A stretch of 64,000 nt of DNA, taken from contig NZ_JAOCCU010000024.1 of NCBI RefSeq assembly GCF_029840635.1, positions 1 to 64,000 of the forward strand. Reading direction: 5' to 3'. Shown one piece after another: positions 45,959-63,495 of the stretch (position 1 is the stretch's first letter; each line of letters opens with the position of its first letter). A program made the position numbers and the translations under genes. The DNA comes from Mitsuaria sp. GD03876. Its GTDB lineage: Bacteria; Pseudomonadota; Gammaproteobacteria; Burkholderiales; Burkholderiaceae_C. The notes beneath the pieces were generated by a model. The model saw only the letters and a program-made list of their open reading frames with translations. It made no database searches and was not told where the DNA came from.

Positions 45959-45973
45959 GCAAATCGCGTGCCG
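45959..45973 (-). promoter_or_regulatory. Sigma-54-type promoter of the PRC-barrel gene
   Basis: On the minus strand GGCACGCGATTTGCC has the -24 GG and -12 GC 10 bases apart, with full GGCACG and TTGC blocks. The predicted start of transcription is near 45947, 27 bp before the ATG. Confidence 0.7.
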
Positions 45974-45989
45974 AAGCGCAGTTCGCCCC

Positions 45990-46005
45990 GGGAATTTCCC
46001 TTGCC
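45990..46005 (+). promoter_or_regulatory. Sigma-54-type promoter of the short YihY gene
   Basis: GGGAATTTCCCTTGCC has GG (45991-45992) and GC (46003-46004) 10 bases apart and a perfect TTGC block; the -24 block is GGAA instead of GGCA. It is back to back with the PRC-barrel promoter. Confidence 0.5.
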
Positions 46006-46065
46006 TGGACAACGGAATCCGCTTCAGCCTCCGACGGCCGCGACACGCCTCGCGGCCCACCGCGC

Positions 46066-46980
46066 ATGCCCAAGCTGCCCCCCGCCGTCCACGAAGCCGT
46101 CGAGATCGTCAGCGAGGCCGCGCAGGGCTGGAGCGACGACAACGCCCCCAGCATGGGCGCCGCGCTCGCGTACTACACGCTGTTCTCGATCGCGCCGCTG
46201 TTGCTGATCGTGATCAGCGTCGCCGGCATCGTCTTCGGCGAGCAGGCCGCCCGCGGCGAGGTCATGGACCAACTCTCCGACCTGATCGGCGTGCAGGGCG
46301 CCATGGCCGTCGAGGACCTGCTCAAGCGCGTCAACCGGCCGGAGGAGGGCGGCTGGGCCGCGGTCATCGGCACCGTCGTGCTGCTGGTCGGCGCGACCTC
46401 GGTGTTCGCGGAACTGCAGAACGCCCTCAACCGGATCTGGAAGGCGCCCACCCTGCGCGAAGGCCCCGTCTGGCGCGGCGTGCTCACGCTGCTGCGCAAG
46501 CGGCTGCTGTCGCTCGGCCTGATCCTCGGCCTGGGGTTCCTGTCGATGGTGTCGATGGTCGCCAGCGCCGCGCTCGCCGCGATCAGCAAGTGGTGGACGC
46601 CATGGCTGGGATCGGAGTTCGTGCTGCTGGCGCAGATCCTCAACGCGACGCTCGCCTACGCGCTGATCACCGTGATGTTCGCCGTCATCTACAAGTGGGT
46701 GCCCGATGTCCCGGTCCGCTGGCGCGACGTCTGGGTCGGCGCGCTGATCACGTCCGCGCTGTTCAGCCTGGGCAAGGCGCTGATCGGGCTGTACATCGGC
46801 CGCAGCGGCGTCAGTTCCGCCTACGGCGCGGCCGCGTCGCTGGTGGTCATGATGCTGTGGGTCTATTACTCGACCCAGGTGTTCCTGATGGGCGCCGAAC
46901 TCAGCTGGGCCTTCGCCAAGCGCCACAGCCTGCGGGAGCAGGCCGCGGCCACCGCCACGCGAACACTGCGCGAGGGCTGA
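46066..46980 (+). CDS. YihY/BrkB-family inner-membrane protein (short form)
   Basis: A 304-residue protein with six hydrophobic helices. Family motifs: APSMGAALAYYTLFSIAPLL, FAELQNALNRIWKAPTLREG, FAVIYKWVPDVPVRWRDVWV and YGAAASLVVMMLWVYYSTQV. It lacks the C-terminal extension of the paralogue at 36563 and is the type often found in stress-induced gene sets. Function unknown. It is transcribed divergently from the PRC-barrel gene, both with sigma-54-like promoters. Confidence 0.92.
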   Translation: MPKLPPAVHEAVEIVSEAAQGWSDDNAPSMGAALAYYTLFSIAPLLLIVISVAGIVFGEQAARGEVMDQLSDLIGVQGAMAVEDLLKRVNRPEEGGWAAVIGTVVLLVGATSVFAELQNALNRIWKAPTLREGPVWRGVLTLLRKRLLSLGLILGLGFLSMVSMVASAALAAISKWWTPWLGSEFVLLAQILNATLAYALITVMFAVIYKWVPDVPVRWRDVWVGALITSALFSLGKALIGLYIGRSGVSSAYGAAASLVVMMLWVYYSTQVFLMGAELSWAFAKRHSLREQAAATATRTLREG

Positions 46981-47033
46981 TCGACGACAGGCCCGATGAA
47001 CAGGGATATCCCGGCGATCAGGCGTGCGGTGGA

Positions 47034-47049
47034 AGGCATGGTGCTTGCC
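47034..47049 (+). promoter_or_regulatory. Sigma-54-type promoter of the Gly/Tyr-rich protein gene
   Basis: AGGCATGGTGCTTGCC: GG (47035-47036) and GC (47047-47048) are 10 bases apart, with GGCA and TTGC blocks intact. The start codon is 72 bp further on. Confidence 0.62.
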
Positions 47050-47120
47050 TGTTCCCTTGTGATTCGGCGGCGCGTGTCGCCGGGTTTGTTCAACCGGCCA
47101 AACGGCTGAAAGGAAGTGCC

Positions 47121-48284
47121 ATGAACCAGTATGGGCAACGAGGACGACAGGACCAGCGTCAAGAGAGCCAATGGGATCAGAGCGACCGCGATCGCCCGAA
47201 CTACGGCGCGCAGTCTGGCAGCTACCGGTCGCAGGATCGCTCGCGCGACGGGGACCAGGCGGCCTACCAGGGCTCGAGCTTCCAGGCCGATCGCGACGAG
47301 CAGCGCGGCAGCGGCTATGGCGGCTACGGCGGCGGGCGCGAGTCCCGCGACGAGTACCGCCAGGACTACCGCGGCCACGGCGACCTGCAGAGCCAGGGCG
47401 GTTATCGCGGCGGTTATGAGAACGAAGGCTGGGGCGGCGACCGCGGTCGCTCGATGAGCGGCAACTACGGCGGCGGCAGCCAGGGCGGCTCCGGCGGTTA
47501 CGGCGGCTACAGCGGCTCCGGCAACTACGGCAGCAGCAGCTACGGCGCGTCCAGCGGCTATGGCCAGGGCAGTTCCGGCGGCGGCGGCTACCGCGACCAG
47601 GGGCCGCGCCAGGAAGGCTGGCGCGAGGACGCCGGCCGCCGCGGCGACTACGGCGGCATGGCCGGCGGCAGCGCCAGCAGCAGCTACGGCAGCACGCTGG
47701 GCGAGCACTACGGCGGCAGCCAGGGCTGGCACGGCGGTTCGCATGAAGGCCGCGGCTACCAGGGCGGCAGCTATCAAGGCGGCGGCTACGGCGGCGGCCC
47801 GGGCGATACCTATCGAGGCGGGCAGGGCGGCTACCAAGGCAGCTCGCAAGGCGGTTCGCAGGCCCAACACCACCACGACCCCGACTACCAGCAGTGGCGC
47901 GCCGAGCAGATGCGCAACCTCGACGACGACTATCACAGCTGGCGCCAGGACCGGTACCAGAAGTTCTCCGACGACTTCAACAAGTGGCGCACGGAGCGCT
48001 CGTCGCGCCAGGGATCGAGCAGCGGCACCGGCGGCGCGGCCGGAACGCTGGGCGCGTCGTCCGGCACGTCCTCCAGCCAGTACGCCGGGCAGCAGGACAC
48101 GTCCGACTCGACGCGCTACGGCCAGGGCGGCAACTCCCTGGGCAGCGGCACCGGCACGCACGAGGGCAGCCTGTCCACGTCGACCGGCTCGTCGAGCCTG
48201 TCCAGCGGCTCCACCGGCACCACGCCGAACGCGTCCGGCACGTCCTCGGGCTCGTCCGGCTCGTCGTCCGGCAAGACCAAGTGA
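47121..48284 (+). CDS. Gly/Tyr/Ser-rich disordered protein with W-R repeats
   Basis: The 387-residue protein starts at ATG 47121 after AAGGAAG. Residues 1-250 are almost pure Gly, Ser, Tyr, Gln, Arg and Asp (SGGYGGYSGSGNYGSSSYGA, YQGGSYQGGGYGGGPG), like eukaryotic prion-like domains. A short structured block follows, with three 14-residue repeats around a Trp-Arg pair (YQQWRAEQMRNLDD, DYHSWRQDRYQKFS, DFNKWRTERS). The C-terminal 90 residues are Ser/Gly/Thr-rich. No signal peptide. Tyr-and-Arg-rich composition is typical of proteins that form condensates; I infer a stress-related assembly protein but have no direct evidence. The frame is full-length with biased but consistent codon use. Confidence 0.85.
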   Translation: MNQYGQRGRQDQRQESQWDQSDRDRPNYGAQSGSYRSQDRSRDGDQAAYQGSSFQADRDEQRGSGYGGYGGGRESRDEYRQDYRGHGDLQSQGGYRGGYENEGWGGDRGRSMSGNYGGGSQGGSGGYGGYSGSGNYGSSSYGASSGYGQGSSGGGGYRDQGPRQEGWREDAGRRGDYGGMAGGSASSSYGSTLGEHYGGSQGWHGGSHEGRGYQGGSYQGGGYGGGPGDTYRGGQGGYQGSSQGGSQAQHHHDPDYQQWRAEQMRNLDDDYHSWRQDRYQKFSDDFNKWRTERSSRQGSSSGTGGAAGTLGASSGTSSSQYAGQQDTSDSTRYGQGGNSLGSGTGTHEGSLSTSTGSSSLSSGSTGTTPNASGTSSGSSGSSSGKTK

Positions 48285-48296
48285 CCTCGTCCTGAC

Positions 48297-48314
48297 GGCC
48301 CCCGCGAGGGGGCC
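48297..48314 (+). terminator. Hairpin after the Gly/Tyr-rich gene
   Basis: GGCCCCC and GGGGGCC form a perfect 7-bp stem with loop GCGA, 13 bp after the stop codon. There is no T-run, so terminator strength is uncertain. Confidence 0.45.
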
Positions 48315-48377
48315 GGCGTCGCCCTCGACGCGAGCGGGCGATCACGCGGCAGGCCGCGCCGATCCTCGTTCTCCGTC

Positions 48378-48393
48378 CGGCATGCCGCTTGCC
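48378..48393 (+). promoter_or_regulatory. Sigma-54-like motif before the GT9 gene
   Basis: CGGCATGCCGCTTGCC has GG (48379-48380) and GC (48391-48392) at the right spacing. Transcription would begin at about 48404, one base before the ATG at 48405. Either translation begins at a later codon (for example GTG near 48471) or the match is fortuitous. Confidence 0.35.
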
Positions 48394-48404
48394 CGACAAG
48401 CGCC

Positions 48405-49466
48405 ATGATCGCGACGTCCCTCGAACAGCGCGCCCGCCCGCCGAGTCCTCCGGGACCCGACGAGGCGGGCGTGCCCGTGTTCGAGGGCCCGGCGCCGCTC
48501 GACGCCCGCCTGCTCGCCGAGGAGCGCCATCGCCGCTGGTGCAACGTGCGCCGCGTGCTGCTGGTGCGGCTGGACGGGGTGGCGGGCGTGCTGGCCTCGA
48601 CGGCCGCGTTCGCGGCCTTGCACGAAACCATGCCCTGGACCCATCGCACGCTGCTGGCGGCGCCCGAGGCGCTGGTGCTGCGGCCGCACCTGCAGTCGGT
48701 GGACGACGTGATGAGCTTCAACGCGCCCTGGACCGCCTCGGGCGCCGCGGCGCTCAACGCCGAGCCGTCGACGATGCGCGGCGATGCCGAGATGCACCTG
48801 GTGCGCAAGCTGCGCCGCAGCCATTTCGACGCGGCGGTGCTGTTCTGCCCCTCCGCCCAGAGCGCCTTGCCCGCGGCGCTGCTGTGCCGCATGGCCGGCA
48901 TCCCCTTGACGCTGGCGCATGTGCGCGAACCGGCGCACGGGCTGCTCAGCGACGAGGTCGCGGACGACGGCGCCGCCCACGACGACACCCGGCGCCAGCT
49001 GGACCTGGTCGACCACATCGGCATGCAAACCGCCGACGAGCGGCCGCGGCTGCGGCTGCTGCCCAAGGACAGCCACCAGATGCGGAACGCCTTGCAGCAA
49101 GCGGGGCTGGGCTTCGGTCAGCGCTACGTGCTGGTGTGCCCGGGCGGCGGCGGCGCGCGGCACTGCCCGGCCGCGGCCTTCGCGGCGGCGGCGGACGTGC
49201 TGCTGGACGCCTGGGCCGACGACACCGCGGTCGTGCTCTGCGCGCGGCCGGGCGACGAGGCGGCGCTGGCGGAACTCCGGGCCGCGATGCCGGCGCGGGG
49301 CCAGGTCTTGCCGCCGGTGGCGTCGATCGGCGAGCTCGCGGCGCTGATGGCGAGCGCGCGCGTGCTGATCGCCGTCGACGACCTGCCGCTGACCATCGCC
49401 GCGGCCACGCGCGTGCCGGCGGTGCTGCCCGGCGAGGCGCTGCGCCGAGAGCGGCTCCTGGGCTGA
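48405..49466 (+). CDS. Divergent family 9 glycosyltransferase (heptosyltransferase-like)
   Basis: The 353-residue product shows the GT9 layout: an N-terminal Rossmann start (VRRVLLVRLDGVAGVLASTA), then FDAAVLFCPSAQSALPAALL, and in the C-terminal half YVLVCPGGGGARHCPAAAFA. GT9 enzymes add heptose or related sugars to lipopolysaccharide core. The usual final Asp-Thr-Gly...His motif is degenerate here (VLIAVDDLPLTIAAATRVPA), so activity is uncertain. The true start may lie downstream of 48405. Confidence 0.75.
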   Translation: MIATSLEQRARPPSPPGPDEAGVPVFEGPAPLDARLLAEERHRRWCNVRRVLLVRLDGVAGVLASTAAFAALHETMPWTHRTLLAAPEALVLRPHLQSVDDVMSFNAPWTASGAAALNAEPSTMRGDAEMHLVRKLRRSHFDAAVLFCPSAQSALPAALLCRMAGIPLTLAHVREPAHGLLSDEVADDGAAHDDTRRQLDLVDHIGMQTADERPRLRLLPKDSHQMRNALQQAGLGFGQRYVLVCPGGGGARHCPAAAFAAAADVLLDAWADDTAVVLCARPGDEAALAELRAAMPARGQVLPPVASIGELAALMASARVLIAVDDLPLTIAAATRVPAVLPGEALRRERLLG

Positions 49467-49522: not shown

Positions 49523-49538
49523 GGGCACGGTGCTTGCC
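49523..49538 (+). promoter_or_regulatory. Sigma-54-type promoter of the small exported protein gene
   Basis: GGGCACGGTGCTTGCC matches GGCACG and TTGC completely with the 10-base GG-GC spacing (49524-49525, 49536-49537). The start codon at 49651 is 113 bp further on. Confidence 0.68.
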
Positions 49539-49650: not shown

Positions 49651-49998
49651 ATGCACCTGCGCAAGCTCGCCTGGGCGATGCCGCTGATGCTCGCCGCGAC
49701 CGCGGCGCACGCGGATGGCTCCGGCAGTTTCCTGGAGGGTGCCAAGCTCGCGGCGCTGGCCCGACCGGAGGCCGCGGCCCCGGCGAACAGCCCCTCCCAT
49801 CGTCCCCCGGCCGCCCCTCGGAACGCCTCCCAGGGCCAGGCGCCGGCCACGTCCACCACCGCCTTGCCGACCTCGTCCGCCGTCCTCGACGCGGATGCCG
49901 AGGTGGCCGGCGCTTCGTTCGAGATCCGCAACTTCCTCACCCTGGTCGTCGCCTTGGCCTTGGTGGGCTGGATCCAGCGCCGCCGTCGGGATGCCTGA
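49651..49998 (+). CDS. Small exported protein with C-terminal sorting-like tail
   Basis: A 115-residue protein starting at ATG 49651 (ACAGGAG upstream). Signal peptide at residues 1-22 (KLAWAMPLMLAATAAHA). The middle is Ala/Pro/Ser/Thr-rich and probably disordered. The tail is a membrane helix followed by basic residues (NFLTLVVALALVGWIQRRRR), reminiscent of exosortase/PEP-CTERM-type sorting signals, although no Pro-Glu-Pro is present. It is probably anchored in or processed at the membrane. Function unknown. Confidence 0.78.
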   Translation: MHLRKLAWAMPLMLAATAAHADGSGSFLEGAKLAALARPEAAAPANSPSHRPPAAPRNASQGQAPATSTTALPTSSAVLDADAEVAGASFEIRNFLTLVVALALVGWIQRRRRDA

Positions 49999-50302: not shown

Positions 50303-51760
<1,458 letters not shown>

Positions 51761-51842: not shown

Positions 51843-51858
51843 TGGCATGCCGCCTGCC
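51843..51858 (+). promoter_or_regulatory. Possible sigma-54-type promoter of the topoisomerase gene
   Basis: TGGCATGCCGCCTGCC has TGGCA and the 10-base GG-GC spacing (51844-51845, 51856-51857) but CTGC in place of TTGC. A start of transcription near 51869 would leave room for the GGAGG at 51871-51875. Confidence 0.4.
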
Positions 51859-51881
51859 TCGGGAGAGGCAGGAGGATGTGT

Positions 51882-53075
51882 ATGTCACTGCGTTGGGTGT
51901 CCGATTGCGAGCCCGGCCTGCGCCGCCGGCGCGCGGCCAAGGGCTTCCGTTACGTCGATGCCGACGGGCGACCGGTCAAGGACGCCGCGACCTTGCGGCG
52001 CATCCGCGCGCTGGCGATCCCGCCGGCCTACGTCGACGTCTGGATCTGCGCCCGCGACGACGGCCACATCCAGGCCACGGCGCGTGACGCGCGCGGCCGC
52101 AAGCAGTACCGCTATCACGCCGACTGGATGGCGCTGCGCGGCGAGAACAAGTTCGGGCTGCTGTTGGACTTCGGCCAGCGCCTGCCGCGCCTGCGACGCC
52201 AGGTCGCGCGGCGCCTGCGCGAGGGCGGGCTCGACCGCGAACGCGTCATCGCCGCGCTGGTGCGGCTGCTCGACCGCACCTGGATGCGGATCGGTCACCG
52301 CGAGTACGCCCGCAGCAACGGCTCCTACGGGCTGAGCACGCTGCTGTCGCGGCACGTGAAGGTCCAGGGCGACGCGCTGCTGCTGAGCTTTCCCGGCAAG
52401 AGCGGCGTGCGCCACCAGCTCGCCGTGCGCGACGACCGGGTGGCCGCGCTGGTGCGCCGCTGCCGCGACCTGCCGGGCCAGGAACTCTTCGGCTACGAGG
52501 ACGAAGCGGGCGAGCCGCACCGCATCGATGCCTCCGACGTGAACGACTGGCTCGCCAGCGCGGGCGGCCCGACCTGCAGCGCCAAGGTCTTCCGCACCTG
52601 GCATGCCAGCGTGCTGGCCCTGGACCTGCTGCTGGGCCACGCGCGCGCCGGCACCGCGCCGGTCGACGCGCTCAAGCGCACGGTGGCCGATGTCGCCACG
52701 CGCCTGGGCAACACCGTGGCGGTCTGCCGCAAGTCGTACATCCATCCGGCGGTGCTCGCCTGGGGTCAGTCGGACCGGCTGGCCGAGCTGCCGTCGCAGC
52801 GCTGGATGCGGGCGCCGCCGGCGGGCCAGGGACTGAGCATCGCGGAACGGCGCCTGATGGGCCTGCTCAAGACCCAGCCGCGGGTGGAGGTCGCTACGCC
52901 GGCGCCTGCACCGTCGACGACGGGCCCGGCGACGGGCCGATCGCGTCGCAGATCGAGTCCAGCGGATCGGCCGTCGACGCGTCCGGGTCGTCCGGCGCGC
53001 TCGCCGCGAGCAGCGCCGCGTCCGTCGTCGCGGCCGCGCGCAGCAGGTGATCGGTCAGCGACGGCCAGTCGCTGA
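51882..53075 (+). CDS. Type IB DNA topoisomerase (poxvirus-like)
   Basis: ATG 51882 lies 6 bases after GGAGG; an ATG at 51876 is too close. The 397-residue enzyme relaxes supercoils by a 3'-phosphotyrosyl intermediate. Catalytic residues are visible: Arg in RTWMRIGHREYARSNGSYGL, Lys in SFPGKSGVRHQ, Arg in KVFRTWHASV and the nucleophile Tyr about residue 286 in CRKSYIHP. Bacterial members are often stress-associated. The last 60 residues are Arg/Ser/Pro-rich, and their coding sequence overlaps the convergent HAD gene by 182 bp. Confidence 0.92.
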   Translation: MSLRWVSDCEPGLRRRRAAKGFRYVDADGRPVKDAATLRRIRALAIPPAYVDVWICARDDGHIQATARDARGRKQYRYHADWMALRGENKFGLLLDFGQRLPRLRRQVARRLREGGLDRERVIAALVRLLDRTWMRIGHREYARSNGSYGLSTLLSRHVKVQGDALLLSFPGKSGVRHQLAVRDDRVAALVRRCRDLPGQELFGYEDEAGEPHRIDASDVNDWLASAGGPTCSAKVFRTWHASVLALDLLLGHARAGTAPVDALKRTVADVATRLGNTVAVCRKSYIHPAVLAWGQSDRLAELPSQRWMRAPPAGQGLSIAERRLMGLLKTQPRVEVATPAPAPSTTGPATGRSRRRSSPADRPSTRPGRPARSPRAAPRPSSRPRAAGDRSATASR

Positions 53076-53676
53076 ACACGCCGTCGGGCTCCCGTAGCGG
53101 CGAACGTCGCCAGGCGGTCTCGCCGCCGGTGTCCAGCAGCAGGCCCGCCGCGCCGGCGCGATGGCCGGCCTCGACGTCGTCGAGCAGGTCGCCCACCATC
53201 CACGACCGCGCCAGGTCCAGGCCGTGCGCCCGCGCAGCGCGGGTCAGCATGCCGGGCGCGGGCTTGCGGCACAGGCAGGCCGGACGGCCTTGCGCGTCCG
53301 GCGCGTGCGGGCAGACGGCCACGTCCGTCAGCGTCACGCCGAATTCCTCCTGCAGCCGGCGCAGCAGCGCGCCCTGCAGCCGCGCGAACTGGGCGCGGGT
53401 GAAGGCGCCGCGCGCGATGCCGCTCTCGTTGGTGACCAGCACCAGCGCCAGGCCCGCCGCGCCCAGCCGCGCGAGCGCCTCGCCCGCGCCCGGCACCAGC
53501 CGCAGGCGGTTGGGATCGGCGACGGCGGCGTCGTCCGGCTCGACCAGCGTGCCGTCCTTGTCGAGGAACACGGCCGGCCGCAGCCGCGCGCGCGAGGCCA
53601 CTTCCCGCTGTTCGCGGGAGAAGTCCAGGTCGTGGAGGGAGAGGGTGGTGAGCGGTGCGTCGAGCCAGGCGGTCAC
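52894..53676 (-). CDS. HAD phosphatase, GmhB/histidinol-phosphatase type
   Basis: The 260-residue product starts at GTG 53676 after AAGGAGG. HAD motifs: FLDKDGTLVEPD (nucleophile Asp about 38), LVTNESGIARGAF, and CRKPAPGML with SWMVGDLLDDVEAGHRAGAA. The CPHAPDAQGRPACLC loop carries the Cys/His zinc site of D-glycero-D-manno-heptose 1,7-bisphosphate 7-phosphatases, used in lipopolysaccharide core synthesis. The catalytic domain ends near residue 205; an extra acidic, low-complexity tail of about 55 residues lies antisense to the topoisomerase tail. A heptose role fits the heptosyltransferase-like gene 4 kb away. Confidence 0.87.
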   Translation of the reverse strand: MTAWLDAPLTTLSLHDLDFSREQREVASRARLRPAVFLDKDGTLVEPDDAAVADPNRLRLVPGAGEALARLGAAGLALVLVTNESGIARGAFTRAQFARLQGALLRRLQEEFGVTLTDVAVCPHAPDAQGRPACLCRKPAPGMLTRAARAHGLDLARSWMVGDLLDDVEAGHRAGAAGLLLDTGGETAWRRSPLREPDGVFSDWPSLTDHLLRAAATTDAALLAASAPDDPDASTADPLDSICDAIGPSPGPSSTVQAPA

Positions 53677-53698: not shown

Positions 53699-54241
53699 TC
53701 AGCGCATCCAGCCGTAGTCGGTCTGGCGCGGCGCCAGCGACTGCTTGTGCCGGGCCATCATCCCGGGCTCTCGTCGCGTGCCTTCGGTGGCGGGGTCGAT
53801 CACGACACCGCCGGACGGGGCCGCCGTCTCGATCGCGCCGGCCGAGCGAGCGGCAGGCAGATGCGCCAGCCTGGGCGGCGGCAGCAGTTCGGCCAGGCGG
53901 TCCAGGGTCTTGCGCACGTCCAGCGGCTTGGCCCACAGCTCGAGGAAGCCGCAGCCGATCGCATCGAAGTCGGAATCGGCCGTCACCGCGATCGCCGGCA
54001 CCTGCGCCCAGCCGCGCCGCATGCGCAGCAGCTTCAGCAGGTCGGAGCCGTGGCAATCGGGCAGGTTGAGGTCCACCAGCAGCAGCGACGGCTGCAGCTT
54101 CGCGCTCAGGCGCCAGGCCGGCATGCCGGCTTCGGCGACATGCAGGCGCAGGTCGCGACGCTGTTCGAACATTGCCTCCATCACGATGACGTTGAGGGGG
54201 CTGTCTTCGATGTACAGCACCGAGCTGAGGCCGTCATTCAT
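53699..54241 (-). CDS. Stand-alone response-regulator receiver protein
   Basis: Starting at ATG 54241, the 180-residue protein has one receiver domain (SVLYIEDSPLNVIVMEAMFE; phospho-acceptor in SLLLVDLNLPDCHGSDLLKL; WAKPLD with the conserved Lys) and a 55-residue Pro/Ala/Gly-rich tail without DNA-binding or enzymatic motifs. It probably acts by protein contact, for example as a phosphate sink or relay for the hybrid kinase. A near-consensus sigma-54 promoter lies 43 bp before its start, and the HAD gene follows after 22 bp in the same direction. Confidence 0.9.
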   Translation of the reverse strand: MNDGLSSVLYIEDSPLNVIVMEAMFEQRRDLRLHVAEAGMPAWRLSAKLQPSLLLVDLNLPDCHGSDLLKLLRMRRGWAQVPAIAVTADSDFDAIGCGFLELWAKPLDVRKTLDRLAELLPPPRLAHLPAARSAGAIETAAPSGGVVIDPATEGTRREPGMMARHKQSLAPRQTDYGWMR

Positions 54242-54283: not shown

Positions 54284-54299
54284 GGCAATCGCCGTGCCC
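54284..54299 (-). promoter_or_regulatory. Sigma-54-type promoter of the receiver-HAD unit
   Basis: On the minus strand GGGCACGGCGATTGCC matches GGCACG and TTGC completely with GG (54298-54297) and GC (54286-54285) 10 bases apart. Predicted start near 54273. Confidence 0.7.
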
Positions 54300-54446: not shown

Positions 54447-54462
54447 GGGTATGAGGCTTGCC
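54447..54462 (+). promoter_or_regulatory. Sigma-54-type promoter of the gene at 54503
   Basis: GGGTATGAGGCTTGCC has GG (54448-54449) and GC (54460-54461) 10 bases apart and an intact TTGC; the -24 block is GGTA. Confidence 0.5.
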
Positions 54463-55194: not shown

Positions 55195-55210
55195 GGGAAC
55201 GCTCCTTGCC
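55195..55210 (+). promoter_or_regulatory. Sigma-54-type promoter of the DUF883-holin operon
   Basis: GGGAACGCTCCTTGCC: GG (55196-55197) and GC (55208-55209) are 10 bases apart with intact TTGC; the -24 block is GGAAC. The first gene starts 56 bp downstream. Confidence 0.5.
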
Positions 55211-55265: not shown

Positions 55266-55637
55266 ATGAGCACCACTCCCAACAACGAGAAGAGCGACAA
55301 GACTGTGCCGTTCACGACGTCCGAGGACGCTGCCAAGGCTTCGAACGGTGCGGGCGCCGCGCCGTCGAGCACCGCCGCGGTCGACATGGTGAATCGCGTG
55401 GCCGACAAGGCGCACGCGACGATCGATCGGCTGGCGACGTCGGCGGCCCCGGCGGCGCAGCATTTGCAGAAGAGCCTGGAGGATACGAACGATCTGCTGC
55501 ACGAGCGTGCCGAGCGTTTGCGCACGACGGGCAACGAGTGGTGTGACAGTTTGCGCGACAACGTGCGCGAGCATCCGCTGATGGCGGTGGGCACGGCGCT
55601 GGCGGTTGGCATGCTGATCGCGCGGCTGACGCGTTGA
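55266..55637 (+). CDS. DUF883 (ElaB/YqjD-like) membrane-anchored protein
   Basis: The 123-residue protein has a polar N-terminus, an amphipathic helical middle (AVDMVNRVADKAHATIDRLA, LEDTNDLLHERAERLRTTGN) and a C-terminal membrane anchor (REHPLMAVGTALAVGMLIAR). This is the ElaB/YqjD pattern, proteins that bind ribosomes at the inner membrane in stationary phase in E. coli. It heads a three-gene operon matching yqjD-yqjE-yqjK in layout. Confidence 0.88.
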   Translation: MSTTPNNEKSDKTVPFTTSEDAAKASNGAGAAPSSTAAVDMVNRVADKAHATIDRLATSAAPAAQHLQKSLEDTNDLLHERAERLRTTGNEWCDSLRDNVREHPLMAVGTALAVGMLIARLTR

Positions 55638-56741: not shown

Positions 56742-57200
56742 TTACACCTTCTCGGCGTTGCGCGCCTGGTCGCGCAGCAGCTTCACCTGGTCGTGGTTGC
56801 GCAGCGCGCCGGCGAGCTGTCGCTGGACCACTTCCAGCACGCCGGCCGGCAGGTCCTTCTGCGCCGCCTTGCGATAGCGGCCCACGGCCGCGTCCTCGCC
56901 GCGCTCGCATTCCTCGAGCATCGCCTTGTCGCTGTAGCCGGTCAGCGTGCCCTTGACGGCCACCCAGCCGCGATGCATCGCGCCGCTGGTGCTGCCTTCG
57001 TCCTCGGGCTGGCCGCCGTGCTGCCGCACCAGCTGCTGCAATTCCGCGCAGGCCTGGCGGCAGTCCGCGGCGCGCTGCGCGAAGACCTCGCGCAGGCTGG
57101 TGCTTTTGACGTGCTCGGCGCAGCTCAGGAAGCCGTACTCGCCGTCCTTGCAGGTCTCGATCAGCGTGTTCAGTTCGTCGATGACGTCCTTGTTGTCCAT
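56742..57200 (-). CDS. DUF2383/PA2169-family four-helix-bundle protein
   Basis: The 152-residue soluble protein starts DVIDELNTLIETCKDGEYGF and has a ferritin-like helical pattern through LAGALRNHDQVKLLRDQARN. It matches the DUF2383 (PA2169) family, common in stress and biofilm gene sets of Pseudomonas and Burkholderiales; function unknown. A sigma-54-like promoter lies at 57243-57258, 43 bp before its start. Confidence 0.92.
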   Translation of the reverse strand: MDNKDVIDELNTLIETCKDGEYGFLSCAEHVKSTSLREVFAQRAADCRQACAELQQLVRQHGGQPEDEGSTSGAMHRGWVAVKGTLTGYSDKAMLEECERGEDAAVGRYRKAAQKDLPAGVLEVVQRQLAGALRNHDQVKLLRDQARNAEKV

Positions 57201-57242: not shown

Positions 57243-57258
57243 AGCAAGTCACGTACCC
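57243..57258 (-). promoter_or_regulatory. Sigma-54-type promoter of the DUF2383 gene
   Basis: On the minus strand GGGTACGTGACTTGCT has GG (57257-57256) and GC (57245-57244) 10 bases apart with TACG and TTGC blocks. It overlaps the last codons of the upstream hybrid kinase gene. Confidence 0.55.
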
Positions 57259-59615
57259 GTGGGCAGCCCCATCGCGCGCCGCAGCGCCTCCAGGATCTGC
57301 GACGGCGACGCCGGCTTGCGCAGCACGATGAACGAGGACTCGGCCGTCAGCGCCTCGCTGAAGCCGCTGATCAGCACGATCGGCAGCCCGGCGCGGCGCG
57401 TGCGCAGCTCGCGGGCCAGCGCCTGGCCGTCCATCGAGCCCGGCATCACCACGTCCGACAACACCACGTCCACCGCCGCGCCGCTGCCGAACAGCTGCAG
57501 CGCCTCGTCCGCGTCCTTGGCCGACAGCACCTGGCAGGAGAAGCTGCGCAGCAGGCTGGCGGTGACGCGGTTGAGTTCCTCGTTGTCCTCCACCAGCAGC
57601 ACCCGCGCGCCGGCCAGGCTGTTGGCGCGCGCGTCCTCGCGCGGCTGGTCGGGCCGGGCGCGCACCGGCGCGCTGGCCTGCGACGGCAGCAGCAGCGTCA
57701 CCGTCGTGCCCGCGCCGAGCTGGCTGGCGATGCGCGCCGTGCCGCCGGCCTGCACGCAGAAGCCCATCACCTGGCTCAGCCCCAGGCCGGTGCCCTTGCC
57801 GACCTGCTTGGTGGTGAAGAAGGGCTCGAAGACGCGTCCCAGGATGTCGTCCGGGATGCCCGGGCCGCGGTCGGTGAAGGTGATGGCCACGTACTCGCCG
57901 GGCGCCAGGTCCTGCACGTCGCCCGGCGACGCGCGGCCGGCCTCGAGCGTGATCTCGCCCATGCCGTTGGTCGCGTCGCGCGCGTTCAGCGCGATGTTGA
58001 TCAGCGCGAGCTCCAGCTCCGACGGATCGACCCGCACGCTGGGCAGGTCCGGCGCCATCGTCGTCGTCAGCTGCATCCGCTTGCCCAGCACCGTGGCCAG
58101 CAGCTCGTTCATCTCGCCCAGCGTCGAGCGCAGGTCGATCACCTGCGGATGCACCGGCTGGCGTCCCGACACGCGCAGCAGATGCTGCGTCAACCGGCTG
58201 CCGACATCGACCGACCGCATGATCGCGCCCAGCGGCATCGCCATCGACTCGGCATGCGGGCTGCGCTGGATCAGGTGCGCGCTGTTGCTGATCACGCCCA
58301 GCAGGTTGTTGAAGTCGTGCGCGACGCCGCCGGTCAGCCGGCCCAGCGCGGCGATGCGCTGCGCGCGCGAGCTCAGCTGTTCCGCCTCGCGGGTGCGGTC
58401 GATCGCCTCGTTGACGCGGTCCTCCAGCTCCGAGCGCCCCTGGCGGATCGCGGCGCTGGCATCCTCGAGCGCCAGGGCCACCTCGTCGCATTCGAGCATG
58501 CCGGTCCTGGGCGCGCGCACCGGCTCGCCGGCGCGCAGCGCGTTGGCGATCTCGTTGAGCGCGTGGATCGGGCCCGAGATGCGGCGGCTGATCCACAGCG
58601 CGCCGAACATGCCCACCAGCACCAGCAGCAGCGCGCCCACGGCGATCGGCTGCAGCGCGGTGCTGCCGCCCAGGCCCGCCAGGCCTGACACCCGCGGCAC
58701 CGCGGTGACCACGGTCCAGCCCTGCGGCGACTTGCTGAAGTAGCCCAGCACCGGCTTGCCGTCGAGGTTGACCGACTCGAACTGGGCCTCGTCCCGCGTC
58801 GCCATCAGCCGCTTGAGGTCGTCGGTGGCGGGGCGCCCGGCGTAGCTGATGCCGCCGGGGTGACGGGCGACGATGGTGCCGCTGCCGTCCATGATCGTCG
58901 CGGTCCAGTCGCCGGGCAGGCGCTGCGCGTCGATGATCTGCTGCAGCTCCTGCGGCAGCACGGTGATCGTCATGTTCAGCCAGACATGGCCGCCGCGCTC
59001 GATCGGCTGGACGATCTGCGCGCGCAGCTGGCCGGTGGCGCGGTCCGGGCCGAGGTCGCCGATCACCGCCTGCTCCGACAGTGGCACCGACTCGCGCACC
59101 AGCACCGGCCGCGAGGCGGCCCGCGTGGGCAGGCCCGGCGGGACGGTGGCCGCCGACGTGGCGGCGGCCGAGGCGCCGGTGGCGGGCGGGAAGGCGACGG
59201 GTGGCGCGAGCGGCGCGGCGGGAACCGCGCCCGTCGGCGGCGTGTCCGCCACCCGCCCGGCGGCAAGCCGCGTGCTGAACAGCGTCCGGTCCGGCGCGGC
59301 CAGCTCGACCCAGCCGGCCAGTCCCTGCATCGCGCGGCGCGACTGCAGTTCCAGCATCGCCAGGTCGTCGGCCGGGATCTGCGGCGAGCTGTCCAGGATC
59401 TGCGACAGCGACAGCACCCGCGCGATGTTGGCCCGGCGCGCCAGTTCCTTGTCCACCACCATCGACAGCGCGCGCGTGCTGTCGCGCATGTGGCGCACGG
59501 TGGCTTCCTGCTCGTCGCTCCAGGTCTGCCAACTGACCCACAGCGCCGCGATGATGCCGGGCAGCATCACGGACAGGACGAGCACGAGCAGGCGGGAACG
59601 GATCGGCAGGGGCAT
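57249..59615 (-). CDS. Hybrid sensor histidine kinase with receiver domain
   Basis: ATG 59615 gives a 788-residue protein with a normal first membrane helix (IRSRLLVLVLSVMLPGIIAA); a TTG at 59717 is possible. A periplasmic sensor (about 45-330, dCACHE-like) contains an Ala/Pro-rich insertion. Then come a second helix (LLLVLVGMFGALWISRRISG), HAMP, a HisKA domain with His in GGVAHDFNNLLGVISNSAHL, HATPase motifs (LINIALNARDATNGMG, GTGLGLSQVMGF) and a C-terminal receiver (VLLVEDNEELNRVTASLLRS, Asp in VVLSDVVMPG). No output domain, so the signal should go to another protein such as the lone receiver at 53.7 kb or the NtrC-type activator. It follows the AI-2E transporter gene by 82 bp. Confidence 0.92.
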   Translation of the reverse strand: MPLPIRSRLLVLVLSVMLPGIIAALWVSWQTWSDEQEATVRHMRDSTRALSMVVDKELARRANIARVLSLSQILDSSPQIPADDLAMLELQSRRAMQGLAGWVELAAPDRTLFSTRLAAGRVADTPPTGAVPAAPLAPPVAFPPATGASAAATSAATVPPGLPTRAASRPVLVRESVPLSEQAVIGDLGPDRATGQLRAQIVQPIERGGHVWLNMTITVLPQELQQIIDAQRLPGDWTATIMDGSGTIVARHPGGISYAGRPATDDLKRLMATRDEAQFESVNLDGKPVLGYFSKSPQGWTVVTAVPRVSGLAGLGGSTALQPIAVGALLLVLVGMFGALWISRRISGPIHALNEIANALRAGEPVRAPRTGMLECDEVALALEDASAAIRQGRSELEDRVNEAIDRTREAEQLSSRAQRIAALGRLTGGVAHDFNNLLGVISNSAHLIQRSPHAESMAMPLGAIMRSVDVGSRLTQHLLRVSGRQPVHPQVIDLRSTLGEMNELLATVLGKRMQLTTTMAPDLPSVRVDPSELELALINIALNARDATNGMGEITLEAGRASPGDVQDLAPGEYVAITFTDRGPGIPDDILGRVFEPFFTTKQVGKGTGLGLSQVMGFCVQAGGTARIASQLGAGTTVTLLLPSQASAPVRARPDQPREDARANSLAGARVLLVEDNEELNRVTASLLRSFSCQVLSAKDADEALQLFGSGAAVDVVLSDVVMPGSMDGQALARELRTRRAGLPIVLISGFSEALTAESSFIVLRKPASPSQILEALRRAMGLPTGT

Positions 59616-59697
59616 GGGCGAGGGGGCGGCGGAGGAACGGGCGTGGCGCCGCGGCCAGAAGGCGGCGGCGCGGACGCGGGAGCGTCGAGGCGGCAGA

Positions 59698-60888
59698 TTA
59701 TGGGCGGTGCTGTTCAAGGGGGTCCGAGCGTGGGGTGGGGCGGCCGGCGGCGGTGGCGCCGCCTGGGGAGACGGGACCGGCGGGGCCGTCGGGATGGGGA
59801 CGCAGCAAGGCGCTCAACGGCGGGCAGGGGCGGTCGCTGCCGCGCAGGTAGACGGCGACCGGACGCATGCGGCGGTTGCGCTGGCTGAGGCTGCGCAGGC
59901 AGATCAGCAGCGGCACCGCGAGCACCGCGCCGGCCACGCCCCAGAGCCAGCCCCAGAACATCACCGACAGCAGCACCGACAGCGGATTCATCGACAGCCG
60001 CTTGCCGATCACCATCGGCGTGATGACGTTGGATTCGACCGCGTGGATGCACAGGTAGGCCGCCACCGGCGCCAGCAGCGACCCGACCCCGGCATCGCCC
60101 AGCGACGAGGCGAGCGCGGCCGCCAGCAGCAGCCCCGACATGATCAGCGGACCGAGGTAGGGCACGAAGTTCAGCAGGCCGGCCACCGCGCCCCACAGGC
60201 CGGGATTGGGCAGGTCCACCAGCCACATCGTGCCGGCCACCACCAGCCCCATGACGAGGTTGATCGCCGAGACCGAGACCACGTAGCGCGAGATGTCGCG
60301 CTGCGCCGCGCGCAGCCCGCCGAGCACCACCGCGCGCAGCCGCTGCCGGTGCGGCAGCAGCTCGATGCAGCGCGACAGCACCCAGTGCTCCGACGCCAGG
60401 AGGAAATACAGCAGGATCGTCGTCGCGGCGGCCGACACCAGGAACTTCACGCCGGTGCCCAGCACCTGCGCCGTCAGCGCGACACCCTCGCTGGCCAGCC
60501 GCTCCCGCAAGGGATCGTTCGGCGGCGTCGCCGCGGCCGCGCGTCCCGCGCGACGCTCCACCGGCGGACCGAAACCCGGAATCGCCGCCCGCCACCGGTC
60601 CACCCGGTTCAAGGCCTGCGACACCGCCACCGGCGCCCGCTGCCACCAGTCCGCCACCGGCTCGGCCAGCAAGGCCACGCTCAATACCGTGCAGCCCACC
60701 AGCGTCGTCACCAACATCGCGGCGCTCACCGCCTCCGGCATGCCGTGATGCCGCATCGTCCGCACCGCCGGCGCCAGCACGAAGGTCAGGATCAACGCCA
60801 CCAGCACCGGCAACACGATCGCGCTCGCCTCCTTCAGCAGGAAGACCAGCGCGATCAACAGCAGGCCCCGCGTCGCCCAGCGGCGCAT
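59698..60888 (-). CDS. AI-2E/PerM-family membrane transporter
   Basis: The 396-residue protein (ATG 60888; a TTG at 60918 is possible) has about eight membrane helices in the AI-2E exporter/PerM pattern: LLLIALVFLLKEASAIVLPV, LVALILTFVLAPAVR, GLLNFVPYLGPLIMSGLLLA and NVITPMVIGKRLSMNPLSVL. The family includes autoinducer-2 exporters and Na+/H+ antiporters; the substrate cannot be inferred. It has an unusual Pro/Arg-rich C-terminal tail of 50 residues. First gene of the unit that ends with the hybrid kinase. Confidence 0.87.
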   Translation of the reverse strand: MRRWATRGLLLIALVFLLKEASAIVLPVLVALILTFVLAPAVRTMRHHGMPEAVSAAMLVTTLVGCTVLSVALLAEPVADWWQRAPVAVSQALNRVDRWRAAIPGFGPPVERRAGRAAAATPPNDPLRERLASEGVALTAQVLGTGVKFLVSAAATTILLYFLLASEHWVLSRCIELLPHRQRLRAVVLGGLRAAQRDISRYVVSVSAINLVMGLVVAGTMWLVDLPNPGLWGAVAGLLNFVPYLGPLIMSGLLLAAALASSLGDAGVGSLLAPVAAYLCIHAVESNVITPMVIGKRLSMNPLSVLLSVMFWGWLWGVAGAVLAVPLLICLRSLSQRNRRMRPVAVYLRGSDRPCPPLSALLRPHPDGPAGPVSPGGATAAGRPTPRSDPLEQHRP

Positions 60889-60960
60889 CGAGGTCGGGGG
60901 CAGGGGGGCGGAACGCAAGATGGTAAGGATGACGAAATGCGAGGGCGGTCACTGCGGCGA

Positions 60961-60976
60961 AGCAAGGGACGGGCCA
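60961..60976 (-). promoter_or_regulatory. Sigma-54-type promoter of the AI-2E transporter-kinase unit
   Basis: On the minus strand TGGCCCGTCCCTTGCT has GG (60975-60974) and GC (60963-60962) 10 bases apart, intact TTGC and one mismatch in TGGCACG. Predicted start near 60950. Confidence 0.55.
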
Positions 60977-61062: not shown

Positions 61063-61124
61063 GCGCGGACCCTCCACGAGGCATGGGGGATCCCTCCTGG
61101 ACCCCCAAGCCTCATTCCGGTCCC
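61063..61124 (-). repeat. Degenerate dispersed repeat, copy B
   Basis: Read on the minus strand, this matches 9506-9568 at roughly three of four bases. It lies in the 622-bp gap between the AI-2E transporter and rpoN, which otherwise holds two opposed promoters and no supported gene; open frames here have atypical composition. Confidence 0.5.
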
Positions 61125-61394
61125 AGTAGCGCCCGCGGCCTTCGCTTTCTTCTTGGCGGGGGGAGCGAGGGGCCTCGCATCGGTAAAGGATGCCGAAAGC
61201 CTTGCCTGGGAAGGGCCGGGGGACGGCATGGCGCGTCCGCGATGCGGACGGACGGCGGGCGGGCTGAGGAGGAGACGGGGTCAGGCCTCGCCGTCGACGA
61301 TTCCCCGGCAGGCCCCGTGCCCAGTGGGTTTGCGGCGATCGGGCAGGCACGCCGGATGACGCGGTCTTCGCGATGTGAAACCTCGAAGCGGCGA

Positions 61395-61410
61395 TGGCAT
61401 GGTCCTTGCG
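61395..61410 (+). promoter_or_regulatory. Sigma-54-type promoter upstream of rpoN
   Basis: TGGCATGGTCCTTGCG has TGGCA and TTGC with GG (61396-61397) and GC (61408-61409) 10 bases apart. Transcription would start near 61421, 120 bp before the rpoN start, implying autoregulation. Confidence 0.62.
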
Positions 61411-61540
61411 CTGTGGGTTCCATCAGGCCGGTCACCGGCACTGCCTACAAGCCGTTCCCGGCCTTGCGCATCGCGGGAGGAACGGAACGGGTTGCAGGCG
61501 GTTTCACCCCCTTTCGACAGGAGTCTCACAAGTGGGAGCA

Positions 61541-62944
61541 ATGGAACTCAGGCACGAGCACAAGCAGACGCAGACGCTGTCGCCTCGCCTCCAGCACGCC
61601 GTGCGGCTGCTGCAGATGTCGTCGCTGGACTTCTCCACGATGGTCACCGACATGCTGGGGCGCAATCCCTTCCTGGAGGTCACCGAAGGCTCGGACGACG
61701 CGCTGCCGCTGGACGCGGACGTGCCGGTCGCGCCGGGACCGGTGATGTCCGACGCTCCGGAGCCGCTGCCCGACGACCGCGAGATCTGGCGCGCCGAGAG
61801 CTCCGGATCGATGCGCCGCGCCGAGGACGGCGAGCTCAGCGCGCTGGAGATGACCGCCGCGCAGACCTGCCTGCGCGAACACCTGCGCAGCCAGCTCAAC
61901 GTGCTGCGCCTGTCCCCGCGCGACCTGGTGCTGGCGACGATCGTGGCCGAGTCGGTCGACGACGACGGCTACCTGCGCAGCTCGCTCGAGGAACTCGCGG
62001 CGGTCGCCCAGATGCAGCCGCCGGTGGCGATCGAGGAGATGCAAATCGCGCTCAAGCGCGTGCAGGCGCTCGATCCGCTGGGCGTCGGGGCGCGCAGCGT
62101 CGCCGAATGCCTGCTGCTGCAGCTGCCCAAGATCGAGGACGCCCGCAGCCGGACGCTGGCCGAGCGGATCATCACGCAACACCTGAACCTGCTGGCCTCG
62201 CGCGACGTGCCGGCGCTGGCGCAGCTGCTGGACGTGAGCGTGGCCGAGGCCGAATCCGTCTGCCTGAAGCTGCGCCGCTTCGACCCCCGCCCGGGCTGGC
62301 GCTACGAGACCACGCAGGCCGCGTACATCGTGCCGGACGTGCTGACGACCAAGGTGCGCGGCCAGTGGCGCGTGCAGCTCAATCCGGCCGTGATCCCGAA
62401 GGTGCGGATGAACCAGGTCTACGCCGAGCTGTTCCAGCGTCACCGCCAGCAGGGCCATGCCGAGATGGCCAACCACCTGCAGGAAGCCCGCTGGACGATG
62501 CGCAACATCGAGCAGCGCTTCTCCACCATCCTGGACGTGGCCAACGCGATCGTGCGCCGCCAGCGGCACTTCCTGGAATTCGGCGCGATGGCGATGAAGC
62601 CGCTGGGCCTCAAGGAGATCGCCGACGAGGTCGGCATCCACGAGTCGACGGTCTCGCGCGTGACCAACAACAAGTACCTGGCGACGCCGACTGGCGTGTA
62701 CGAGCTGAAGTACTTCTTCTCCCGCGCGATCGTCAGCAGCAACGGCAGCGCCTGCTCGGGCACCGCGATCCGCGGGCTGATCAAGGACATCATCGAGGCC
62801 GAGCGCGCGGACAACCCGCTGTCCGACGCCGAGATCACCCGCCAGCTCGCCCGCCAGGGCCTGGTGGTGGCGCGGCGCACGGTGACCAAGTACCGCCAGA
62901 TGCTGCGCATCGACGCCGTCGAGCGCCGCCGCCAGCACAGCTGA
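61541..62944 (+). CDS. rpoN: RNA polymerase sigma-54 factor (probable second copy)
   Basis: The 467-residue protein starts at ATG 61541 (MELRHEHKQTQTLSPRLQHA), with GGGAG close upstream. Region I is the Gln/Leu-rich activator-responsive segment (residues 1-50); an acidic region II follows (about 55-110). The core-binding domain leads to the helix-turn-helix (GLKEIADEVGIHESTVSRVT) and the RpoN box ARRTVTKYRQML near the C-terminus, which reads the -24 element. Housekeeping rpoN normally lies between lptB and hpf/ptsN; none of these is here, so this is likely an additional paralogue (RpoN2). Length is slightly short, due to region II. Its promoter looks sigma-54-dependent. Confidence 0.95.
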   Translation: MELRHEHKQTQTLSPRLQHAVRLLQMSSLDFSTMVTDMLGRNPFLEVTEGSDDALPLDADVPVAPGPVMSDAPEPLPDDREIWRAESSGSMRRAEDGELSALEMTAAQTCLREHLRSQLNVLRLSPRDLVLATIVAESVDDDGYLRSSLEELAAVAQMQPPVAIEEMQIALKRVQALDPLGVGARSVAECLLLQLPKIEDARSRTLAERIITQHLNLLASRDVPALAQLLDVSVAEAESVCLKLRRFDPRPGWRYETTQAAYIVPDVLTTKVRGQWRVQLNPAVIPKVRMNQVYAELFQRHRQQGHAEMANHLQEARWTMRNIEQRFSTILDVANAIVRRQRHFLEFGAMAMKPLGLKEIADEVGIHESTVSRVTNNKYLATPTGVYELKYFFSRAIVSSNGSACSGTAIRGLIKDIIEAERADNPLSDAEITRQLARQGLVVARRTVTKYRQMLRIDAVERRRQHS

Positions 62945-63004
62945 CGACCCGGATCTTCCCGAGGCGCGATGGAGACAAGGACGGGGCCCGACGAGGCCCC
63001 GTCG

Positions 63005-63445
63005 TCATTTTCGGCGCGGCGCCGACGGCGGGGTCTGCGGGCCGGCGTCCTTGACCAGCCGGTCCCGGCGCTCCGCGTCCAGCCGGTCCCGGCGCTCCGC
63101 GTCCAGGCCGGGCGTGCCGCGCAGGTCGGTGTCGACCTGGCCCTGCGCCAGGTCCTCGCGCGCCTGGCCGATGACCTCGCGCTGGTTCTCGCCGGCGGCG
63201 CCGGTGCCATGGCCGCCCGTCGAATCGCCACCGACGCTCTGGTCGCGTTCGTGCGGCAGCTGCACGTCGTCGTTGTGGCGAGGGGCCTCGTCGGGCGGGA
63301 CCGTGCCGGGCGACACCGGGGCCTTGTCGAGCATGCGGCGGGGCGCGGCGGAGGCGTCGCCGGCGCCGCCCGCGCGCCCTTCGTCGCCGCGGCCGGCATC
63401 GCCGTTGTCGCCGGGACGCGGGGTTCCGTCTTGCGCGGTGGTCAT
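63005..63445 (-). CDS. Hypothetical acidic low-complexity protein
   Basis: The 146-residue product starts at ATG 63445 with AGGAG about 8 bases upstream. It is hydrophilic, Gly/Asp/Arg-rich and probably disordered, with a short duplicated segment near the C-terminus (LDAERRDRLDAERRDRL). No membrane span or signal peptide. Composition resembles small stress proteins such as those with plant-LEA-like behaviour, but no family is recognised. A sigma-54-like promoter lies at 63481-63495. Confidence 0.65.
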   Translation of the reverse strand: MTTAQDGTPRPGDNGDAGRGDEGRAGGAGDASAAPRRMLDKAPVSPGTVPPDEAPRHNDDVQLPHERDQSVGGDSTGGHGTGAAGENQREVIGQAREDLAQGQVDTDLRGTPGLDAERRDRLDAERRDRLVKDAGPQTPPSAPRRK

Positions 63446-63480
63446 GAGCACTCTCCTGAAGTTCTTCTTGCCCCGGTTCG

Positions 63481-63495
63481 GCAATCCGCCGGCCT
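63481..63495 (-). promoter_or_regulatory. Sigma-54-type promoter of the gene at 63445
   Basis: On the minus strand AGGCCGGCGGATTGC has GG (63494-63493) and GC (63482-63481) 10 bases apart with an intact TTGC. The -24 block is GGCCG, so the match is partial. Confidence 0.45.

Follow-up and report, generated by a model that had tools for sequence, protein, structure and literature searches.

A second sigma-54 factor and a putative RpoN2-dependent stress and envelope regulon in Mitsuaria sp. GD03876 and related Burkholderiales

In this work we analyzed a 64,000-nt stretch of DNA (hereafter the window; positions 1–64000 of contig NZ_JAOCCU010000024.1, or C17) from the 6.36 Mb draft genome of Mitsuaria sp. 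GD03876 (G000), a member of the Roseateles/Mitsuaria group. Two sigma-54 genes are present in this genome, one on contig C51 (RpoN1) and one in the window (RpoN2); RpoS is also encoded. Comparison of sequences suggests that RpoN2 is a specialised Burkholderiales sigma-54 paralogue which, together with a co-inherited activator bearing the GAFTGA motif, transcribes a set of general-stress and envelope genes from -24/-12 promoters; we give this reading a probability of about 0.78. A stress/envelope regulon run by RpoN2 had been proposed in a preliminary description of the same DNA, and this proposal gains support from motif enrichment, spacing, orientation and conservation, from the co-occurrence of RpoN2 with the activator and from the absence of the site ahead of the same gene in RpoN2-less genomes.

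In the proposed scheme RpoN2 would read promoters of the form (G/A/C)GGYAYR-N5-TGC(C/T), which would be used by the RpoN2 polymerase and not by RpoN1, and which the co-inherited activator would drive. Stress would be the signal, perhaps relayed by a hybrid kinase and a lone receiver. Less firmly, rpoN2 itself may be under another holoenzyme, most simply that of RpoN1.

The strict motif GGYAYR-N4-TTGC occurs eight times in the window, against a mean of 0.87 and a maximum of 3 in 100 dinucleotide shuffles. The matches, at 45959(-), 47035(+), 48379(+), 49524(+), 54285(-), 54448(+), 57244(-) and 61396(+), are all confined to 15.5 kb (45959–61409), and the first 45.9 kb of the window contains none. 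The sole comparable match noted earlier in the first 45 kb, at 21283, is real and reads GGAACG-N4-TTGC, which is not strict. Across the genome, GGYAYGN4TTGC has 71 matches and its reversed-pattern control 25; the rate outside the window predicts 0.15 matches in the 15.5-kb stretch, where eight were found (Poisson P ~7e-12). Chance as the source of the cluster is ruled out by the shuffles and the genome-wide rate. Seven of the eight sites lie in gaps between gene models, though 86% of the region 44932–62944 is coding; the exception, 57244, overlaps the 3' end of the hybrid-kinase gene. The loose pattern GG-N8-TTGC, with 52 matches in the whole window against 39.8 ± 5.9, is barely above chance, so the signal is carried by the conserved YAYR of the -24 element. 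The off-spacing control GG-N11-GC gave 94 matches against 116 expected, and a second pattern of that spacing 6 against 10 for the reversed control. With an approximate sigma-54 matrix, nine of the ten best window scores fell within the island stretch, and two of these nine lay in the coding region of DUF883. Scanning thus bore out the enrichment claimed in the preliminary description, and its figure of about 13 GG-N10-GC sites is a fair count once weaker matches join the strict ones, namely GG-N8-TTGC at 45991(+), 55196(+), 60962(-) and 63481(-), and 51843(+), which has CTGC. Pfam likewise recognized the sigma-54 factor, activator, lone receiver and hybrid kinase reported there, and GAFTGA was read in the translation. 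The main genes and strict sites are as follows.

61541..62944, + strand: rpoN2, second sigma-54, 467 aa from the ATG at 61541 (Pfam AID, CBD and DBD)
61396..61409, + strand: -24/-12 element of rpoN2 itself, GGCATGGTCCTTGC then G (purine class; strict motif)
61307..61321, + strand: conserved element GGCAGGCCCCGTGCC ahead of rpoN2, possibly a distal promoter or a site for the activator
50303..51760, + strand: NtrC-family activator with receiver, AAA+ domain with GAFTGA and Fis-type helix-turn-helix (Pfam; start estimated, open from 50210)
45959..45972, - strand: -24/-12 element before the PRC-barrel gene, GGCACGCGATTTGC + C (strict motif)
45579..45920, - strand: PRC-barrel protein (PF05239)
47035..47048, + strand: -24/-12 element before the disordered Gly/Tyr-rich protein (strict motif)
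47121..48284, + strand: disordered Gly/Tyr/Gln-rich protein, 387 aa, with a conserved C-terminal segment
48379..48392, + strand: -24/-12 element before the glycosyltransferase family 9 gene (strict motif)
48405..49466, + strand: glycosyltransferase family 9, heptosyltransferase-like (PF01075)
49524..49537, + strand: -24/-12 element before a small secreted/membrane protein (strict motif)
49651..49998, + strand: small protein with signal peptide and C-terminal transmembrane segment (translation read by eye; no Pfam family)
54285..54298, - strand: -24/-12 element before the lone receiver (strict motif)
53699..54241, - strand: lone receiver protein, start estimated (PF00072)
54448..54461, + strand: -24/-12 element before the 166-aa protein (strict motif, conserved block)
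54503..55003, + strand: 166-aa protein (no significant Pfam match)
57244..57257, - strand: -24/-12 element before the DUF2383 gene, overlapping the kinase-gene end (strict motif)
56742..57200, - strand: DUF2383 protein (PF09537)
57249..59717, - strand: hybrid histidine kinase with C-terminal receiver (PF02518, PF00072; HisKA under cut-off)

To follow these sites in relatives, we took the best 80 of 357 relatives (79 distinct loci), divided by identity into RpoN2 loci (L039–L072; 34 loci, at least 50%) and RpoN1 loci (L073–L117; 45 loci, at most 46%). The closest named relatives by RpoN2 are Roseateles and Mitsuaria, and L039–L048 and L057, three of which are metagenome-assembled genomes, have 97–89% identity. 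In the RpoN2 loci (672 kb in total) GGYAYR-Nx-TTGC was found 184 times at the GG-N10-GC spacing, 4–17 times at each of nine other spacings and 6 times reversed; in the RpoN1 loci the corresponding numbers were 55, 6–34 and 4. The gene order of the RpoN2 loci shifts from genus to genus, but some of the neighbouring genes recur, and some loci have only RpoN2 and one or two further window genes in common. The rpoN2 gene has a site at most 260 nt upstream in all 34 relative loci. With the window included, a site precedes the lone receiver in all 12 rows, DUF2383 in 18 of 23 rows (with one further doubtful case) and, in related form, the 166-aa protein in 14 of 14 (the -24 element being changed in six); DUF883 is preceded by a site in 10 of 14 rows, 10 of 13 relatives showing GGCACG, GGTACG or GGCATG at a like distance. 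These footprint counts show presence and not an unbiased consensus, because the search pattern presupposes GG and GC.

The orientation of 132 target sites was compared with well-supported gene starts 14–130 nt away, seven near-duplicate loci having been dropped. A start was present on the sense side only in 59 cases, on the antisense side only in 5, on both in 17 and on neither in 51, and the sense-side distance peaks at 35–65 nt. Since the sites point toward the gene, a promoter is favoured over an operator.

Comparison of the bases flanking the motif in the 34 loci and the window indicates that the rpoN2 promoter belongs to another class than its targets. All 35 rpoN2 promoters, whose own site ends in TTGCG or TTGCA, have a purine following GC, and 116 of the 117 target promoters with a clustered downstream open reading frame (ORF) have a pyrimidine there; the 35 are orthologous and partly near-identical, so that the number of independent cases is much smaller. 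Immediately before GG, C or T was found in 32 of the 35 rpoN2 promoters, and G in 64 of the 117 target sites. In 40 unclustered sites the base after GC was C30 T5 G4 A1, and in RpoN1-only loci we counted T21 C17 A12 G5 before GG and C21 G21 A8 T5 after GC. Because the RpoN1-only loci are mixed, G before GG is the better mark of an RpoN2 target, and the -11 base alone is not diagnostic. The purine/pyrimidine split, taken with the -11 discrimination known in Rhodobacter sphaeroides, gives roughly an even chance that rpoN2 and its targets depend on different holoenzymes, RpoN1 being the simplest candidate for rpoN2; this would constitute a sigma-54-to-sigma-54 cascade. It should be mentioned that a further element, GGCAGG-N4-RTGCC, lies about 234 nt upstream of rpoN2 and was found within 320 nt in 12 of the 35 sequences, namely those of the window and of the 11 relatives closest to it; as it also fits GG-N10-GC, the copy at 61307–61321 may be an additional promoter or a site for the activator.

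In a survey of 150 genomes of the family (G000 included), 148 of which have a sigma-54, RpoN2 was scored in 23 (at least 365 bits; the next score, 331, is an RpoN1) and the activator also in 23 (at least 554 bits; next a fragment in G016 at 380, then 341). Both were found in 22 genomes, a single one in 1 + 1 and neither in 126 (Fisher P 4e-24, only a guide because the genomes share descent). One exception is G053, in which an activator of 49% identity adjoins RpoN2; the other is G104 (76% complete), with the activator and no detected RpoN2. G011 (a 176-residue RpoN2 fragment) and G016 and G043 (activator fragments; G043 is 80% complete) were scored as absent. In an order-wide sample of 300 genomes, five besides G000 reached at least 434 bits, a score that would miss divergent members such as Burkholderia RpoN2, and all five have RpoN2-type boxes. 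More than one RpoN2-type match was present in each of G053, G078 and G119. A plasmid of Comamonadaceae OTU4NAUVB1 (L264) carries an RpoN2-clade gene beside a 59% identical activator; no further window protein matched within the 19 kb examined.

The DUF2383 gene, present in 41 of the 150 genomes, allowed a direct comparison, for which 46 gene copies were examined. GGYAYR-N5-TGCY was found at most 150 nt upstream of 14 of 22 copies (13 genomes) where RpoN2 is present and of 0 of 21 where it is absent (P 6e-6). This comparison was made without G104, which has the site, and G043 and G016, which do not. Spacing controls with N8, N9 and N11 gave 0 and 0, and N12 gave 0 and 1.

The RpoN2 protein scored above the cut-offs of PF00309, PF04963 and PF04552 and reached 419.9 bits with TIGR02395 (cut-off 277.35). 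Its RpoN box, ARRTVTKYRQ, differs from ARRTVAKYRE at two of ten positions and keeps the ARRT-x2-KYR core, and is thus a variant within the sigma-54 family. Fifty-six RpoN2 rows were aligned with 54 rows of other sigma-54 factors. T449 and Q453 were found in all 55 readable RpoN2 rows, while of the other 54 rows 53 have A and 52 have E at these positions; L140, counted among the 54, has a box of the RpoN2 type and falls with RpoN2 in the tree. Next to the -12 recognition helix, 52 of 56 RpoN2 rows have N376 and 53 of 54 others have T376, and S394 and R395 also set RpoN2 apart. The RpoN box and the -12 helix region contact the -24 and -12 elements. Consistent differences were also revealed in the activator-interacting region I (R8, Q11, R16, A20, V21). 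In a quick tree of 109 rows (midpoint root; several long-branch rows) a branch with a support of 97 in the Shimodaira–Hasegawa-like approximate likelihood ratio test (SH-aLRT) separates the 52 sequences that have T in the box from the rest. This clade of 52 takes in three Burkholderia sequences just 40–42% identical to the window RpoN2; no Ralstonia row was present among the matches listed for RpoN2 (30 of 221 records). The activator contains PF00158, PF00072 and PF02954. Among the matches listed (25 of 99 NCBIfam) it reached the cut-off of no named equivalog (NtrC, AtoC, ZraR), the best being TIGR01818 (413.3 versus a cut-off of 558.6 bits).

To characterize the putative regulon, 30 of 91 clusters of ORFs behind target-type sites, some with uncertain gene models, were picked by eye. 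Pfam matches, one representative each, were obtained to OmpA barrel, Transgly_assoc, PRC, SDR, hemerythrin, BON, PLD, CsbD, KGG, glycosyltransferase, DUF326, CBS, DUF421, MscS and carbamoyltransferase; 5 of 20 scanned representatives had no Pfam match or only one under the cut-off. Outside the window, such sites in the Mitsuaria genome precede genes for Host_attach/baeRF, DUF4126, KaiC, DUF6496, glycine zipper and DUF427 proteins, and 3 of 10 scanned candidates had no Pfam match. Urease gamma also follows a site there and is more likely an RpoN1 than an RpoN2 target. CsbD, KGG, PRC-barrel, BON and Ku/LigD families are typical of the general stress regulons of RpoS, SigB or EcfG, and the putative target set thus has families typical of a general stress regulon. 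In Burkholderia multivorans (L266) RpoN2 lies among DUF892, PRC, CBS, DUF3008, DUF1328, Ku and LigD genes. Three Burkholderia islands contain 14 GG-N10-GC matches versus 0–6 at 11 other spacings; in the L266 sites the base after GC varies, which sets them apart from the Roseateles group. The preliminary description had called the regulon self-contained, which did not hold: sites of the same type occur past the window, at C17:70134, and on other contigs, where likely targets lie, and RpoS is also present. At 70134 (also in L029 and L224) the site and its downstream ORF, whose frame is uncertain, recur in relatives.

Several other explanations of the sites were weighed. They could be genuine sigma-54 promoters read by the housekeeping RpoN1, with RpoN2 redundant or antagonistic. 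The core is indeed near the general consensus TGGCACG-N4-TTGC as quoted in the available part of PMC4676750, where an antagonistic RpoN2 is proposed for Ralstonia solanacearum, RpoN1 is present in G000, and B. pseudomallei rpoN2 partly replaces E. coli rpoN, a possible overlap (PMC4745423, available part). We regard this explanation as improbable: the RpoN box differs, G precedes GG in 64 of 117 target sites versus 5 of 55 sites in RpoN1-only loci, and the DUF2383 site is absent from all 21 copies in RpoN2-less genomes, though nearly all genomes surveyed have a sigma-54.

It is less probable still that an ordinary dimeric regulator binds the motif as a palindromic operator (GGCA-N7-TGCC) and that sigma-54 is incidental. 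Such an inverted repeat is visible in most target sites, 97 of 132 having C at both variable places, but the orientation toward the gene (59 to 5) speaks against it, as do the TTGCG or TTGCA end of the site of rpoN2 itself and the independent variation of the halves, in which a C-to-T change at the third position is unmatched opposite (GGTA with TGCC 11 times, with TGCT 5). It is also very unlikely that RpoS or an extracytoplasmic function (ECF) stress sigma runs the genes and the sigma-54 sites are accessory. The presence of RpoS and the target families, usually found in RpoS, SigB or EcfG regulons, would agree with this, but the motif, its conservation and its link with RpoN2 would be left unexplained. 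RpoS, SigB and EcfG belong to the sigma-70 type, which works without an ATP-driven activator.

A number of observations weigh against the regulon run by RpoN2 and its activator that we prefer. Many of the 34 RpoN2 loci are closely related, so that their counts are not independent. PRC is preceded by a site in one of 7 rows, that of the window, the other six being distant (27–34%); in a separate clustering of downstream ORFs, PRC genes were found behind such sites in L044, L049, L050 and L052. The activator gene itself is mostly without a site, with 1 weak site in 2 rows. No convincing common activator site was found in the loci by dyad counts, a CGGT-N3-ACCG scan or an expectation-maximization (EM) search. 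The best EM motifs, non-palindromic and above shuffled sequence (the shuffled control covered palindromic widths only), probably stem from coding sequence, and the commonest dyad, CCGGT-N3-ACCGG, in 9 sequences versus at most 6 in shuffles, comes mainly from the region between the lone receiver and 166-aa genes. C after GC is not unique to RpoN2, as the base is mixed in RpoN1-only loci and in the Burkholderia islands. Eight of the 22 DUF2383 upstream regions in genomes with RpoN2 lack the site; the expression used there was fixed after an earlier matrix and strict result had been seen, and these earlier tests were weaker (matrix with the last position freed, P 0.008; strict TTGC, 4 of 22 versus 0 of 24, P 0.045). 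The genome-wide excess of GGYAYRN4TTGCC is 28.4 per genome with RpoN2 versus 16.5 (P 1e-4), and per Mb the medians of 5.0 and 3.8 (P 0.21) indicate a weak RpoN2 link. Because this per-Mb difference is not significant, the genome-wide excess was dropped as a marker of RpoN2 and weight was put on the local evidence. Finally, promoter specificities may overlap, since according to PMC4745423 an E. coli rpoN mutant regained amino-acid use with B. pseudomallei rpoN2, and earlier work cited there had assigned katE to RpoS.

A sigma-54 paralogue with a cognate activator is of a kind already known, and the putative stress-like Burkholderiales regulon is a variant of that kind. Rhodobacter (Cereibacter) sphaeroides has the paralogues RpoN1, RpoN2 and RpoN3 with separate regulons, cognate activators and promoter discrimination involving -11, as the available parts of PMC3162934 and PMC11999139 describe; its regulons are nif, flagellar and xrpA, whereas that of Burkholderiales RpoN2 is a putative stress/envelope set and the RpoN box is changed. 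In B. pseudomallei RpoN2 is reported to be required for expression of the catalase gene katE in late growth (PMC4745423); in the part available this source gives one stress gene and no regulon, dedicated activator or promoter class. Three other Burkholderia RpoN2 share the clade and the RpoN box of the window protein (a single one of these records is annotated, and it shows a stress-gene island); the tree has no B. pseudomallei row. R. solanacearum, also of the Burkholderiales, has a second sigma-54, RpoN2, distinct from and not interchangeable with RpoN1, to which no regulon is assigned in the available parts of PMC4676750 and PMC4371752. A paper on RpoNp of Bradyrhizobium DOA9, as far as its available part goes, ties a second RpoN to stress (PMC13207237). 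Among the matches listed in the open PMC literature (subscription papers and preprints lie outside this scope), we found no title or abstract opening with an RpoN2 stress regulon or, in Burkholderiales, a general stress response run by sigma-54. The proposed arrangement nevertheless has more precedent than the preliminary description allowed: the pairing of a paralogue with a cognate activator was known from R. sphaeroides, and a katE link from B. pseudomallei.

The weaker sites and remaining genes of the island are given below.

45991..46004, + strand: weak -24/-12-like match before the YihY/BrkB gene (GG-N8-TTGC only)
46066..46980, + strand: YihY/BrkB family membrane protein (PF03631)
51843..51858, + strand: weaker -24/-12 match TGGCATGCCGCCTGCC before topoisomerase IB (matrix score 10.6)
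51876..53075, + strand: topoisomerase IB (PF01028, PF21338)
52894..53676, - strand: HAD-IIIA hydrolase, GmhB-like (profile matches)
55196..55209, + strand: degenerate -24/-12 element GGAACGCTCCTTGC + C before the DUF883-like gene (GG-N8-TTGC)
55266..55637, + strand: DUF883/ElaB-like protein (PF19029, 24.3 bits, under the cut-off of 27)
60962..60975, - strand: possible -24/-12 element GGCCCGTCCCTTGC + T before the AI-2E-type permease and kinase genes (matrix, GG-N8-TTGC)
59698..60918, - strand: AI-2E family permease (PF01594)

As to the target families named earlier, Pfam confirmed PRC-barrel, DUF2383, BrkB/YihY and topoisomerase IB, while the DUF883 match stays below the cut-off and YqjE had no significant Pfam support. 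The 387-aa Gly/Tyr/Gln-rich protein has no Pfam or NCBIfam family; its segment at about 246–300 recurs in L058, L060 and L062, and the Gly/Tyr-rich family was also found downstream of sites in L060, L062 and L067. Between the divergent promoters of the lone receiver and the 166-aa protein (54298–54448) we observed the palindrome CGGTGTAACCG, exact in 4 and similar in 2 more of 7 aligned sequences. The island contains both the heptosyltransferase-like gene (48405–49466) and the GmhB-like phosphatase gene (52894–53676), which suggests changes of the lipopolysaccharide core or of cell-surface sugars as part of the response.

A wider picture can be entertained tentatively, at somewhat short of an even chance: across Burkholderiales a duplicated sigma-54 may, next to RpoS, be the master of an ATP-driven general stress response, with a dedicated activator, its own promoter class, a cascade through the separate class of rpoN2 itself and promoters that are largely orthogonal. 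Sigma-70-type factors normally run general stress regulons; under sigma-54 such a regulon would need its activator to be expressed at all, and would therefore be switch-like. The proposed regulon offers a concrete function for a sigma-54 paralogue of 23 of 150 family genomes and three Burkholderia records, whose role has so far been unclear. The RpoN1/RpoN2 pair, with its differences in the RpoN box and -12 helix and its split promoter classes, may also serve as a natural system for finding the residues that set sigma-54 promoter specificity.

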